DNA from: Streptomyces sp. NBC_01803
GTDB lineage: Bacteria > Actinomycetota > Actinomycetes > Streptomycetales > Streptomycetaceae
Assembly: GCF_035917415.1 (NCBI RefSeq)
Contig: NZ_CP109073.1
Span: forward strand, 3,952,501 to 4,016,500
Length of the DNA: 64,000 bases
Direction: 5' to 3'
The translations under genes were made by a program, and so were the position numbers. The notes below the pieces were generated by a model. It saw only the letters and a list, made by a program, of their open reading frames with translations. It was not told where the DNA came from and made no database searches. Of the stretch, positions 47,723 to 51,642 are shown piece by piece. Within the stretch, counting starts at the first letter, position 1; every line of letters begins with the position of its first letter.

Positions 47723-48095
47723 CACGAACGACGACGGCGTCCTCATCGGGCCGAGGGGACCGCGTCGCCGGACTCGGTCCGGTTGTCGGCCCAGGAGCAC
47801 GGGTTCGACCACAGGGGGGACGCCGCCGAACTGGCGCGGCGCTGCCCGGAGCACCTCGGCTGTCCCGGCGACCGAGCCGCCACCTGTCCGCACGCCGGCT
47901 ACCCGCGGCCCGGACTTGCCGTCGGTCATCGCGGATGGTGAGACCTGCGCGGCAGCGCGGTGCCGGCTCTCCGGCGCCCCGGGTCTTCGCCCTGGCCGGC
48001 CGAGAGGCCGACGTGGCCTGATGTCCAGGGCGGGACGGTTCCGGGCCTTCTGCCCTACTGGTCAACTGCTCGACAGGGCGGAGTACGATTCGTGC
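47723..48095 (+). other. Non-coding gap upstream of gntR
   Basis: No supported gene in these 373 nt: the six reading frames give only short or compositionally poor reading frames. The right end holds the gntR promoter: TACGAT at 48084-48089, six nt before ATG 48096, with GTCAAC at 48061-48066 as a possible weak -35 (17-bp spacer). Confidence 0.5.
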
Positions 48096-48776
48096 ATGTC
48101 ACTTGCGGATGACATCGAGATCATCGGTACCAGCACGGCCCAGCAGGTGGCCGATGGGCTGATGCGGATGATCCTTGAGGGAAAACTCCACCCGGGAGAG
48201 CGGCTTCGGGAAAGTGCGCTGGCGTCCTCGCTGGGGCTGTCCCGAAACACAGTCCGGGAGGCCGTGCGGCTGCTGCAGAGCGGCGGCCTGGTCCGTTACC
48301 ACTTCAACCGCGGCCTGGTCATCTGGGACCCCACGGACGCGGACATCGTGGACGTCTACCGCGCCCGCCTCCACTTCGAGGTGGCCGCGGCGACCTCGGT
48401 GACGCCGGAGACCGATCTTGAGGCCGTTCGCCGCGCGCTGGAGGAGTTCAAGCGTGCCCTCGTGACCCACGATCCCCGCACGATCGTGGAAAAGGACCTC
48501 GCTGTGCACCAGGCGGTGGTCCGTCTGCTCGGGAGCGAGCGCATCGACGGCTACTACGCGCAGCTCATGAACGAGTTGCGGTACTTCCTGCTCGTGCTTT
48601 CGTTCGACCACCGGGAGTACGAGAACACCGACGAGCTGAAGTCGGAGCATGACCGTATCTACGACGCTCTCGTCTCCCGGGACCACGAACGGGCGCGCAC
48701 CGTGATCACTGAGATCACCACCCGGAACCGCGACGCCGTTCGTGAGGTAGTCGCCAGGCGGGTGGCCGGACGCTGA
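48096..48776 (+). CDS. GntR-family regulator, FadR/FCD subfamily
   Basis: The 226-residue protein has an N-terminal winged helix (QQVADGLMRMILEGKLHPGERLRESALASSLGLSRNTVREAVRLLQSGGLV, residues 15-65) and an FCD effector domain (DIVDVYRARLHFEVAAA, KDLAVHQAVVRLLGSERI, ELKSEHDRIYDALVSRDHERARTVI) with the D/H metal-ligand pattern. It faces the phospho-lyase/kinase operon tail to tail and probably represses it. The promoter TACGAT is six nt from the ATG, so the mRNA is probably leaderless. The last codons and the stop lie in a large terminator hairpin. Confidence 0.93.
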   Translation: MSLADDIEIIGTSTAQQVADGLMRMILEGKLHPGERLRESALASSLGLSRNTVREAVRLLQSGGLVRYHFNRGLVIWDPTDADIVDVYRARLHFEVAAATSVTPETDLEAVRRALEEFKRALVTHDPRTIVEKDLAVHQAVVRLLGSERIDGYYAQLMNELRYFLLVLSFDHREYENTDELKSEHDRIYDALVSRDHERARTVITEITTRNRDAVREVVARRVAGR

Positions 48777-48801
48777 GCGTTCGGCCACCCGCCTGGCGAC
48801 T
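48749..48801. terminator. Long bidirectional terminator overlapping the 3' end of gntR
   Basis: The 20-bp perfect stem 48749-48768/48782-48801 continues through one G-T pair into ACGC-TGA-GCGT. The total is about 25 bp with a 3-nt loop that is the gntR stop codon. It ends one base before the stop codon of the converging phospho-lyase gene. Confidence 0.9.
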
Positions 48802-50157
48802 TCAGCGCAGCACCTGCTTCATGACCGCCTCCAGTGCTTCCAGGAGTCGGTCGGCGTCCGCCCGGGAGAACACCAGCGGAGGGCGGAGCTTGAGGACGCT
48901 GCCTCGCGGGCCGGACGCAGAGATGAGCACCCGCCGCTCACGCAGGCCGTTGACGATGCCCAGCGCGGCTGCCCCGTCGGGGGTGTTGCGCGCCGGATCG
49001 GACACCAGCTCGACGCCGATGAACAGGCCGGCGCCCCGGACCTCCGCGACCTGGGGGTAGGGGGCGGTCACGCGGGTGAGCTCGGCGAGCAGATAGTCGC
49101 CCACCTCGCGGGCGTTATCGCCGAGCCGTTCGTCCCGGATGACGTCGAGCACGGCCTGAGCCGCCGCGATGGCGACCGAGTTGCCGCCGAAGGTGTTGAA
49201 GTAGCGGATGTCGCGGCCGAACGCCTCGATCAGCTCGGGCCGGAAGACGGCCGCTGCCACCGGGATGCCGTTGCCCATGGGCTTGCCGGTCGTCATTATG
49301 TCCGGAATGATGCCGTGGCGCTGGAATCCCCACCATGCCTCTCCGGTCCGGTGGAAGCCTGCTTGGACCTCATCGGCGATGTAGAGCCCGCCGGCCGCGC
49401 GCACCTCCTCCAGGATCGGCTGGAGGAATCCCCGCGGGTGGGAGTAGACGCCGTCGGAGGAGAAGATCGAGTCCGCGATGAACGCCGCGAGGCCGACCCC
49501 GTGGCGCCGAAGGTCGTCGATCGCCGCGCGTACCTGCTCCCGCAGGTACGCGCCAAGTCCGGCCCCGGAGCCGTGCCGAAGGCTGTCGGGCGGCCTGATC
49601 GTCCTGACGTCGGCACCCACCGGCACGCCGGTGCCCAGCGACGGTGAGAACGAGGCGACCTCCGCCGTCAGACCGTGGTAGGCGTTCGACGTGACGATCA
49701 CGCCCCGGTTGCCCGTGTAGTGGCGCGCGACCCGTGTGGCGAGGTCGTTCGCCTCGGAGCCGGTGCACGTGTACATCACGTGTCCGAGTTCCCCGGGGAG
49801 GGTGCCGAGCAGATCCTCGGAGTAGGTGAGGATCGATTCCTGGATGTAGCGCGTGTTCGTGTTGAGGGTCGACATCTGCTGGTGTACGGCGTCGACGACG
49901 CGCGGGTGGCAGTGCCCGACACTGGCCACATTGTTGTAGGCGTCGAGATAGTCCTGCCCCGCCTCGTCGAAGAGCAGCGTGCCCGCGCCGCGGACGGTCT
50001 CGACGGGGGACCGGTAGAAGAGCCGGTACCCCGGACCGAGGAGCTGGTCGCGTCGGCTGATCTGCCGCTGGGCACGCGCCGGCAGGGAAGGGAGGAGGGA
50101 AGCGTCGAACGCGTTGACCATGGGTTGTGCAGGCTGCATTGCGGGGGACCCGGCCAT
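48802..50157 (-). CDS. Class III PLP enzyme, ethanolamine-phosphate/phosphohydroxylysine phospho-lyase-like
   Basis: The 451-residue protein belongs to the AGXT2L (ETNPPL/PHYKPL) branch rather than ordinary class III transaminases. YLDAYNNVASVGHCHPRVVDAV and QMSTLNTNTRYIQESILTYSEDL are near-diagnostic; also TGSEANDLATRVARHYTGNRGVI, IADEVQAGFHRTGEAWWGF, the PLP lysine in TTGKPMGNGIPVAAAVF, and YFNTFGGN. Such enzymes eliminate phosphate and ammonia from O-phospho-amino alcohols, giving an aldehyde. ATG 50157 follows AAAGG at a good distance; an ATG at 50184 overlapping the kinase stop is the alternative. Second gene of the operon. Confidence 0.88.
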   Translation of the reverse strand: MAGSPAMQPAQPMVNAFDASLLPSLPARAQRQISRRDQLLGPGYRLFYRSPVETVRGAGTLLFDEAGQDYLDAYNNVASVGHCHPRVVDAVHQQMSTLNTNTRYIQESILTYSEDLLGTLPGELGHVMYTCTGSEANDLATRVARHYTGNRGVIVTSNAYHGLTAEVASFSPSLGTGVPVGADVRTIRPPDSLRHGSGAGLGAYLREQVRAAIDDLRRHGVGLAAFIADSIFSSDGVYSHPRGFLQPILEEVRAAGGLYIADEVQAGFHRTGEAWWGFQRHGIIPDIMTTGKPMGNGIPVAAAVFRPELIEAFGRDIRYFNTFGGNSVAIAAAQAVLDVIRDERLGDNAREVGDYLLAELTRVTAPYPQVAEVRGAGLFIGVELVSDPARNTPDGAAALGIVNGLRERRVLISASGPRGSVLKLRPPLVFSRADADRLLEALEAVMKQVLR

Positions 50158-50183
50158 GGGAGAACCTTTCTGTTTGAGTGGCA

Positions 50184-51260
50184 TCAGGGAACTCTCAGCG
50201 CGCAGAGGGCGGCGCGGACCTCGTCGGCCGGAACCGACAGGGCGCGTCGCAGGCGCTGCCAGTCCCCTTGGGAATGCGAGTGCAGGTAGTCCCGCCGTTC
50301 CGGGTGGCGGGCCGCCCGCCACTCCGTGATCAGCGCACGCAGCAGGAGTCGGGCGGGGACGGCCGTCGCCAGCAGGGGGAGTTCCGACGCCTCGATCGGC
50401 CTGACACTGCGGTAGCCGGTCAGGAAGTCCATCGCCTGGGCCCAGGGAGCCTCCGCGTCCGCTCCGAGCTGATTGGCCATGCCGACACTCACCTCGAAGA
50501 TGACGGGCGACCGGAGGGTGTCGCCGAAGTCGAGGACACCCACCACGTAGTGTGATGCGCGCGGATCGACGAGCACGTTGAACGGACTGAAGTCGCCGTG
50601 GATGGCCTGGGTTTCGAGGGCTGCCAGTCGCGGCACGATCTCGCGGTCGAACCGGGCGAAGAGGTCCGCGCCGAGTGACCGGTTCGCCTCGTCGCCGACG
50701 TAGTCGGCCAGGGCACGCATGCGATGGAACAGTTTCAGGTCCCACATGAGCAGACGGTCCTCGGCCCCGTGGCGGAAATCGCGGAGCGCGATGTCCAGCG
50801 TGCCGAGAGCGGCGCCGACCGAGCGCAGTTGGCCGGCTGTCGGCGACTGGCTGCTCAGCGGGTCGCCCGGCAGGTACTCCATGACGCGCAGGACGCGCCG
50901 CTGTGGGCAGCCAGGGATCTCGATGACGGTCTCCACCTGGTCGGCCACTCCCGTGACCAGCCGCTGGACACGGAGCTGCGGGGCCGACCGCGCGACGAAG
51001 GCCATCGCCTCCGACTGGAGGTTGACCGCCGCCCGGTCCTCGTCCGGCGGAGAGATCTTGATCAGGAACTCGTCCCGACCGGTGCCGAGGTGGAACGTCT
51101 CGTCCTTCTCGGTGGGAATCCTGCGGAGCGATCCGTGGAGACCGTAGTGCAACGACAGGAGGCTGTGCACGAACTCCTCTCCCACGGCGGGGCCGGGGGC
51201 ACGGATGCCGGTCGCCGCAGCCGCCCGCGCGAGGAAGTCGCGGTCGTCCGCCCGCGTCAC
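50184..51260 (-). CDS. Phosphotransferase of the hydroxylysine kinase (HYKK/AGPHD1)-like APH family
   Basis: The 358-residue APH-fold kinase has VLRVMEYLPGDPLSSQSP, LGTLDIALRDFRHGAEDRLLMWDLK, catalytic loop AIHGDFSPFNVLVDPR and metal motif GVLDFGDTLRSPVIFEVSVGMANQ. The C-terminus is LLLRALITEWRAARHPERRDYLHSH. This layout matches hydroxylysine kinases more than antibiotic phosphotransferases. It is the first gene of the operon with the phospho-lyase. It would phosphorylate a hydroxylated amine (5-hydroxylysine or a relative) to make the lyase substrate. GTG 51260 is chosen because a leader ORF ends in GTGA there; GTG 51308 is an in-frame alternative. Confidence 0.85.
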   Translation of the reverse strand: MTRADDRDFLARAAAATGIRAPGPAVGEEFVHSLLSLHYGLHGSLRRIPTEKDETFHLGTGRDEFLIKISPPDEDRAAVNLQSEAMAFVARSAPQLRVQRLVTGVADQVETVIEIPGCPQRRVLRVMEYLPGDPLSSQSPTAGQLRSVGAALGTLDIALRDFRHGAEDRLLMWDLKLFHRMRALADYVGDEANRSLGADLFARFDREIVPRLAALETQAIHGDFSPFNVLVDPRASHYVVGVLDFGDTLRSPVIFEVSVGMANQLGADAEAPWAQAMDFLTGYRSVRPIEASELPLLATAVPARLLLRALITEWRAARHPERRDYLHSHSQGDWQRLRRALSVPADEVRAALCALRVP

Positions 51261-51313
51261 GGCCGGCGGTCCGCGCCGGACCGGGCGTCGCCGGAAAGGG
51301 CCGACCACGTCAT
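51257..51313 (-). CDS. 18-codon leader ORF coupled to the kinase start
   Basis: ATG 51313 lies six nt after GAGAGGA, the best ribosome binding site in the leader. It encodes MTWSALSGDARSGADRRP and stops in GTGA, where the G of the kinase GTG starts the overlap. The kinase GTG itself has no ribosome binding site, so ribosomes finishing this ORF probably reinitiate. The peptide composition gives no attenuation signal. Confidence 0.55.
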   Translation of the reverse strand: MTWSALSGDARSGADRRP

Positions 51314-51334
51314 GGGGAATCCTCTCGCTCAGCG

Positions 51335-51360
51335 AATATACAGTTCTACTGTAGAACAGT
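51335..51360 (-). promoter_or_regulatory. Promoter and palindromic operator of the kinase/lyase operon
   Basis: On the minus strand the -10 is TATATT (51335-51340). GTTCTAC-T-GTAGAAC (51343-51357, extendable to 51340-51360 with one mismatch) fills the 17-bp spacer upstream of it. A bound GntR dimer would block RNA polymerase. The start site would be near 51328, about 15 nt before the leader ORF. Confidence 0.6.
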
Positions 51361-51642
51361 AGTGCAGGCTGGCGTGTGGCGCCCGCAACGAAACGGCAGC
51401 GGAACATGCCGGGGTGGCCGCGGTCCTGGAAGATTCGGGCTCAGGGCCCAGGGCTCAGGGCTCAGTGGTCGGAGGCGGTCGGGGGGCGTGGGGCGGAGTG
51501 GCCGGTGTGGTGGGAATCGGTGCCGCCCATCATTTGCGGCGGGCGATGCGCCCGGCGCGTGTGAAGGTGTCCGCCACGGCGTTGGTCGAACCCGGCGGGT
51601 GCGGTAACGGGCGGCCTGACCTGATGTGTTGGAGCCGTCACG

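Follow-up and report, generated by a model that had tools for sequence, protein, structure and literature searches.

What does a small cluster of three genes contribute to Streptomyces sp. NBC_01803? The cluster lies within a 64-kb window (positions 3952501-4016500 of a genome of 5,847,022 bases in a single contig; coordinates below are those of the window) and comprises genes for a kinase, for a pyridoxal phosphate (PLP)-dependent enzyme and for a GntR-type regulator:

50184..51260, minus strand: K1-type APH-fold small-molecule kinase, 358 aa from a GTG at 51260 (open frame to 51407)
48802..50157, minus strand: predicted PLP-dependent O-phospho-amino-alcohol phospho-lyase (ETNPPL/A1RDF1 family), 451 aa from an ATG at 50157 (open frame to 50745)
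48096..48776, plus strand: GntR-family regulator with an FCD (FadR-type) ligand domain, 226 aa, identified from Pfam, NCBIfam and homologues near the pair in relatives

An earlier note on this DNA had placed the three genes at these positions; all were found there, with Pfam domains that agree. The kinase stop codon and the lyase start codon are 26 nt apart, making a two-gene minus-strand operon, and the regulator gene is convergent with it (tail-to-tail). The GTG and ATG starts were chosen with the help of relatives and upstream sequence. The comparisons described here make it quite likely that this operon, under its own switch protein, would phosphorylate a small amino alcohol and then split the product into ammonia, phosphate and an aldehyde.

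Judged from its sequence, the PLP enzyme is a member of the same phospho-lyase family as 5g4i (A1RDF1) and 6tor (human ETNPPL) and is not an ordinary transaminase. The protein matches Aminotran_3 (PF00202) with 241.3 bits. Its highest NCBIfam scores are to the C-terminal ends of two fused-protein models, PRK06148 (471 bits) and PRK06149 (372 bits), all others giving 238 bits or less. The best PDB matches are the phospholyase 5g4i (356 bits) and ETNPPL, 6tor (350 bits), the next being a racemase at 181 bits; in a fold search with the predicted model (mean pLDDT, the predictor's own confidence score, 85.6), the top four chains all came from these two structures. In a tree of 88 of 155 rows, kept after thinning at 78% identity and leaving out L013 (stops) and L008 (short), the window lyase falls in an 82-row group with A1RDF1 and ETNPPL (SH-aLRT support 100), apart from six class III enzymes of the same genome; these six are the only outgroup and all have long or nearly long branches (1.41-2.45). 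The enzyme thus proved AGXT2L-like, as the earlier note had proposed, and did not fall among ordinary omega-transaminases, at least as represented by that outgroup. The family marker Asn84-Asn85-Val86 is present in the window lyase, A1RDF1 and ETNPPL, while the genome's own class III rows have Gly, Ser or Ala at position 84 and Gly at 85. Lys301 in the 460-residue translation P0002 (K292 in the 451-aa numbering) is the PLP lysine and is invariant across 21 rows. Among 199 genomes of the genus, the sole match above 55% identity is the window's own genome. A phosphonate role of the PbfA kind was considered and rejected: PbfA is likewise a class III PLP lyase and not a transaminase, but the window lyase gives only 187.2 bits to model NF049939, whose cut-off is 525, even though the best model for the regulator is phosphonate-associated.

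The kinase contains an APH domain (PF01636, 77.6 bits) and, by its profile scores, is not an antibiotic kinase. Its matches to PRK06148 (183 bits) and PRK06149 (144 bits) are at the N-terminal ends, so that kinase and lyase match opposite ends of both fused-protein models; homoserine kinase models give at most 43 bits. No antibiotic APH model exceeded its cut-off, the best being APH(3')-VIIIa with 23.4 bits (cut-off 520), and the grouping with antibiotic phosphotransferases that the earlier note had considered was not found. The closest fold to the predicted model (pLDDT 93.7) is the homoserine kinase 2ppq; 6ef6, a microcompartment-associated aminopropanol kinase, ranks fifth. Kinases found at lyase loci are of two types, K1 and K14, represented by profiles built from 64 and 8 sequences, respectively, and separated with support 100 in a kinase tree of 78 of 102 rows. 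The window kinase is of type K1. Membership of the 6ef6 (K14) type was tested and not found: 6ef6 is not listed in a search with the kinase (P0001) alone at E values up to 1, and it gives 28.7 bits to the K1 profile, whereas the K14 kinase of locus L040 (Pectobacterium) gives 249 bits to 6ef6 in a single-sequence search. The window kinase shares the APH fold with the aminopropanol enzyme, which by sequence goes with K14 and is only distantly related to K1. Kinship of the window kinase with animal HYKK is suggested by database names.

The pairing of kinase and lyase genes extends far beyond chance. Among 80 lyase loci (the best 80 of 590 confirmed), a K1 gene is adjacent and on the same strand in 54 and lies elsewhere within 4 kb in 3; K14 genes are found within that distance in 6, neither type in 16, and one locus has no room. 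Ten other class III genes of these loci served as a control. None of the eight ordinary ones (lyase-profile scores of at most 365 bits) has a kinase gene within 100 nt, two having one at 3.2-3.4 kb; the other two score as lyases, one with a kinase at 7 nt and one without. The two genes therefore do co-occur elsewhere, as the earlier note had anticipated. Intergenic gaps were measured by open frame and are hence rough. Neighbour clusters were made by single linkage and labelled partly by eye; since the kinase label also took in ATP-binding cassette ATPases, the kinase counts were redone with hidden Markov models. Seven loci of own-genome paralogues, with flanks of about 1.5 kb, gave no match to the window kinase. 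In 20 further stretches (one per genome, chosen among the better matches; 11 of 199 and 34 of 394 genomes matched), a K1 gene is adjacent in 15, with the lyase gene first in 10 of these; three have K14, one a weak K1 match and one no kinase.

The two domains also occur in one chain. K1 and lyase parts are fused in 13 of 15 stretches fetched, most of which were picked for long open frames, and are separate genes in the other two. Eleven fusions measure 959-1022 aa; L164 and L165, with 786 and 815 aa, are shorter and join kinase and lyase directly. As stated in PMC12138971, gene fusion can indicate function even when both partners are uncharacterized; reference 76 of that paper, among its gene-fusion references, is a hydroxylysine-kinase paper. 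The window kinase groups with rows from Mycobacteriaceae, Arthrobacter-type bacteria and the same genus (10 rows, support 100), and the window lyase with those same lineages (8 rows, support 97). These matching groups indicate that the pair travels together.

Comparison of the loci brought out a second difference, which concerns a single residue of the lyase:

49204..49206, minus strand: codon for Arg327 (numbering of P0002; Arg318 of the 451-aa lyase), which divides stand-alone K1-linked from K14-linked lyases

All 78 rows in which a stand-alone K1 kinase lies within 4 kb have arginine at this position (for five of them the kinase type was assigned by hand), as against none of the 12 K14-linked rows, which represent 11 proteins and have Pro (9), Met (2, both from one protein, A1RDF1) or Leu (1). 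The window lyase has Arg and so lacks the non-Arg feature of K14-linked lyases. In 19 rows without a nearby kinase (one with no room, one with a short, weak K1 match), Arg is found 7 times, Pro 11 times and Ala once; six rows with unassigned kinase type divide evenly into Arg and Pro, three each. The two direct fusions have Val and Thr, and ETNPPL has Glu. In class III enzymes the Thr of the FNT motif reaches the active site of the partner subunit. Residue 327 lies four positions before this Thr, which makes it plausible that Arg327 touches the substrate. The lyase tree unites the main K14 group, the window clade and further K1-linked rows in a group of 33 rows (support 98); A1RDF1 falls elsewhere, hence at least two K14 lineages do without Arg.

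Some K14 loci point to a substrate. On plasmid pTC2, A1RDF1 lies beside genes annotated as homoserine kinase, amino acid permease and aldehyde dehydrogenase, the kinase being K14 (203 bits, versus 42 for K1). At K14 loci of Pectobacterium (L040) and Acinetobacter (L085), a permease matches the ethanolamine permease model TIGR00908 (cut-off 381.75) with 620 and 599 bits; that of Cellulomonas L056 falls just short, at 336 bits; L052 and pTC2 have permeases that do not match this model. L051 has an acetate/propionate--CoA-ligase-like gene. Because modules linked to ethanolamine or 1-amino-2-propanol have K14 and a lyase without Arg327, neither compound is probably the substrate in the window. The division of bacterial kinase/phospho-lyase modules by kinase type, K1 versus K14, as these sequences present it, is new here. 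We tentatively suggest, with the balance somewhat against it, that two parallel systems share the lyase fold: one with K14 for small neutral amino alcohols, the other, with stand-alone K1 and found in at least three phyla, for a carboxylated amino alcohol held by Arg327. The window operon would then be a K1 system with a GntR switch of its own, and kinase type and residue 327 would have changed together.

The switch itself would be the regulator, whose Pfam matches are GntR (PF00392, 54.7 bits) and FCD (PF07729, 58.2 bits); its closest NCBIfam model, TIGR03338 (phnR_burk), gives 101.9 bits, under the cut-off of 271.5. A homologue is linked to the pair in four of the five close relatives examined (L009, L010, L012 and L129, not L011), and in L009, L010 and L129 it is divergent from the kinase. 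L150 has an HTH-type (helix-turn-helix) regulator, YdhC, annotated about 4.8 kb from the kinase. Three short elements accompany these genes:

51347..51361: perfect palindrome TACTGTTCTACAGTA, likely operator for the GntR regulator; another inverted repeat, at 51339-51353, overlaps it
48055..48068, plus strand: candidate second operator CTACTGGTCAACTG, 5' of the regulator gene; weaker than the kinase-side site
51257..51313, minus strand: 18-codon ATG reading frame, candidate leader; its stop overlaps the kinase GTG start (GTGA)

FadR-type regulators prefer TnGTnnnACnA-like sites. The palindrome 5' of the kinase, which likely serves as the regulator's operator, is the sole exact copy in the 5.85-Mb genome. 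Its core, TGTTCTACA, is found between the regulator and kinase genes of L009, L010 (both Mycobacteriaceae) and L129 (G486) as TAATGTTCTACAGTT, and AACTGTTGAACAGCA is found 5' of the kinase in L012 (Arthrobacter sp. ISL-28); no related site was seen in the 200-260 bases inspected in L011 and L150. The pattern at 48055-48068, drawn up post hoc, has four matches in the window, three of them at the same place, where 0.94 would be expected. The 18-codon frame is possibly a translated leader, or could be chance. A promoter scan found no sigma-70-type site.

From these comparisons we infer the following course. The kinase would use ATP to phosphorylate the hydroxyl of a 1,2-amino alcohol, R-CH(OH)-CH2-NH2; the PLP enzyme would remove phosphate and ammonia from the product to leave an aldehyde, R-CH2-CHO, which would enter general metabolism; and the GntR/FCD protein would act as a repressor at the palindrome 5' of the kinase, being released on binding the substrate or an intermediate.

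Several observations weigh against parts of this picture. The split between kinase types at residue 327 is, as the tree has it, confounded by descent: Arg327 follows phylogeny, so that its link to the kinase depends on few independent events. Ten rows of the large-fusion type, judged by open-frame length, have Glu (7) or Lys (3) at position 327 and fall with the phosphoethanolamine enzyme ETNPPL or close to it; fused K1 without Arg327 in this position of the tree means that K1 alone does not exclude ethanolamine. The absence of both K1 and K14 kinases within 4 kb at 16 of the 80 loci, 11 of them from Enterobacterales, makes the pairing not obligatory. The window operon contains neither a transporter nor an aldehyde dehydrogenase gene. 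As to the palindrome, the genome has no other copy at one mismatch and a reversed control pattern also gives one match; at up to three mismatches the window has two matches against a shuffle mean of 2.48, hence no enrichment.

For the substrate, a carboxylate-bearing amino alcohol (5-hydroxylysine or a short hydroxylated omega-amino acid) has, as we infer it, somewhat less than an even chance, and another amino alcohol stands at the same level; ethanolamine appears unlikely. The case for ethanolamine, in which an ethanolamine kinase and a phosphoethanolamine phospho-lyase would yield acetaldehyde, starts from the two solved relatives, titled phospholyase and ethanolamine-phosphate phospho-lyase, and from A1RDF1, which we take to be active on phosphoethanolamine. 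EutC was not found in the own genome, which leaves room for such a role, and the lyase tree places ETNPPL among rows with long open frames of the type seen in K1-lyase fusions. Set against this are the permeases above the TIGR00908 cut-off at two of three K14 loci tested, the lack of Arg327 in K14-linked lyases and the pairing of A1RDF1 itself with K14. That the two genes are an ordinary class III transaminase and a resistance-type kinase, neighbours by chance, is what automatic annotation names would suggest; this very improbable reading was rejected, being contradicted by NCBIfam scores, PDB matches and family placement, the fold search, both trees, the fusions and the co-occurrence counts.

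5-Hydroxylysine, doubtful in itself, would be converted by a HYKK-like kinase to 5-phosphohydroxylysine and by the lyase to 2-aminoadipate semialdehyde. It is favoured by the database names of the kinase family, by Arg327, which could hold the carboxylate, and by the presence of two aldehyde dehydrogenase genes and a YdiJ-like gene among the neighbours in L129; in L015, a locus without K1, a gene resembling L-pipecolate oxidase (330 bits, under the cut-off of 600) is found at about 2.8 kb from the lyase gene. The YdiJ-like gene scores 458 bits against a cut-off of 1350. In the own genome HGLS was not found and no piperideine-6-carboxylate dehydrogenase exceeded the cut-off, so that the full hydroxylysine route is not evident; a route via 2-oxoadipate and D-2-hydroxyglutarate, conceived from the YdiJ-like gene, was dropped for lack of HGLS. 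Taken alone, a short omega-amino acid with a hydroxyl group is quite unlikely; examples are 4-amino-3-hydroxybutyrate and 5-amino-4-hydroxyvalerate, from which succinate or glutarate semialdehyde would be formed. The chemistry is compatible, Arg327 would suit it, and the second gene 3' of the lyase in L129 resembles succinate-semialdehyde dehydrogenase (581 bits), but falls under the curated subfamily cut-off of 646, and the window operon has no such gene.

The neighbours and the gene content of the own genome do not settle the substrate, and reading it from neighbours alone was abandoned because they differ too much between lineages. The L129 neighbours include genes resembling aminobutyraldehyde dehydrogenase (702 bits, subfamily cut-off 615) and CrtO/amine oxidase, as well as a permease gene; its neighbour clusters flank the pair in L010 as well and, to the contig end, in L009. 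Paenarthrobacter L011 has a type II haloacid dehalogenase (131 bits, cut-off 125) and an oxidoreductase of the flavin adenine dinucleotide type. In L032, L036, L045, L073 and L088, the lyase, mostly with K1, lies beside carboxyltransferase-domain and LamB/YcsF genes (called with Pfam on one member each, the others by cluster); this hints at a lactam as a possible source for the route there. At L018:4750-6420, a gamma-glutamyltransferase gene (372 bits, cut-off 358) is directly 5' of the kinase.

Other loci have a different make-up. Eleven from Enterobacterales (L046, L047, L050, L053, L060, L061, L063, L065, L077, L080 and L086) encode a Pro327 lyase without K1 or K14 within 4 kb; their kinase, if any, must be elsewhere, and in eight of them the next upstream gene is, by eye, a DeoR-type regulator. 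In L154, on plasmid pAtK84c, the gene 5' of an Arg327 lyase is annotated as glycerate kinase and matches neither kinase profile. In the window, the GC content of the module (0.67-0.70) is similar to that of the adjoining 46-48 kb stretch and below that of the remaining surroundings (0.69-0.77), which says little about transfer.

How much of this is known already? The animal enzymes HYKK and PHYKPL follow the same two-step logic as that proposed for the window pair; they are named as such a pair in PMC5200902. The reaction chemistry is known. A1RDF1 of Paenarthrobacter aurescens TC1 (5g4i) is of the same family (42-43% identity in fold-search alignments) and has kinase, permease and regulator genes nearby, but its cluster differs from the window in the K14 kinase, a regulator annotated as TetR and Met327. 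Human ETNPPL shares the lyase fold and Asn-Asn-Val with the window enzyme, but is an animal enzyme with Glu327, and the PRK06148/PRK06149 proteins differ in forming a single chain of some 1000 aa that includes a middle part and in having Glu or Lys at 327. According to PMC13275390, a Herbaspirillum operon combines hydroxylysine kinase with 2-haloacid dehalogenase and 4-aminobutyrate aminotransferase. A literature search, which left most subscription papers outside, found no characterised stand-alone K1 module. The earlier note's idea of a stand-alone bacterial pathway is supported in part, by family, by the lack of grouping with antibiotic kinases and by co-occurrence; it is not new in principle, because a bacterial phospho-lyase has already been solved (5g4i). 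Its expectation that annotation hides the module holds in part: the NCBI names among the matches listed are 'aspartate aminotransferase family protein' and 'phosphotransferase', yet some records already have the hydroxylysine kinase and phospho-lyase names. Among 120 kinases listed, 'hydroxylysine kinase' is used by JGI for 13 and by UniRef for 2 more, and a plasmid record of Arthrobacter sp. Hiyo8 has 'hydroxylysine kinase' together with 'ethanolamine-phosphate phospho-lyase'.

Lyases of the ETNPPL/A1RDF1 kind are widespread and often continue to carry transaminase names. Should the substrate be predictable from kinase type and residue 327, a large number of misnamed pairs would become testable, a bacterial route for hydroxylated amino acids may gain genes, and the regulator with its operator would provide a ready-made sensor for the compound.

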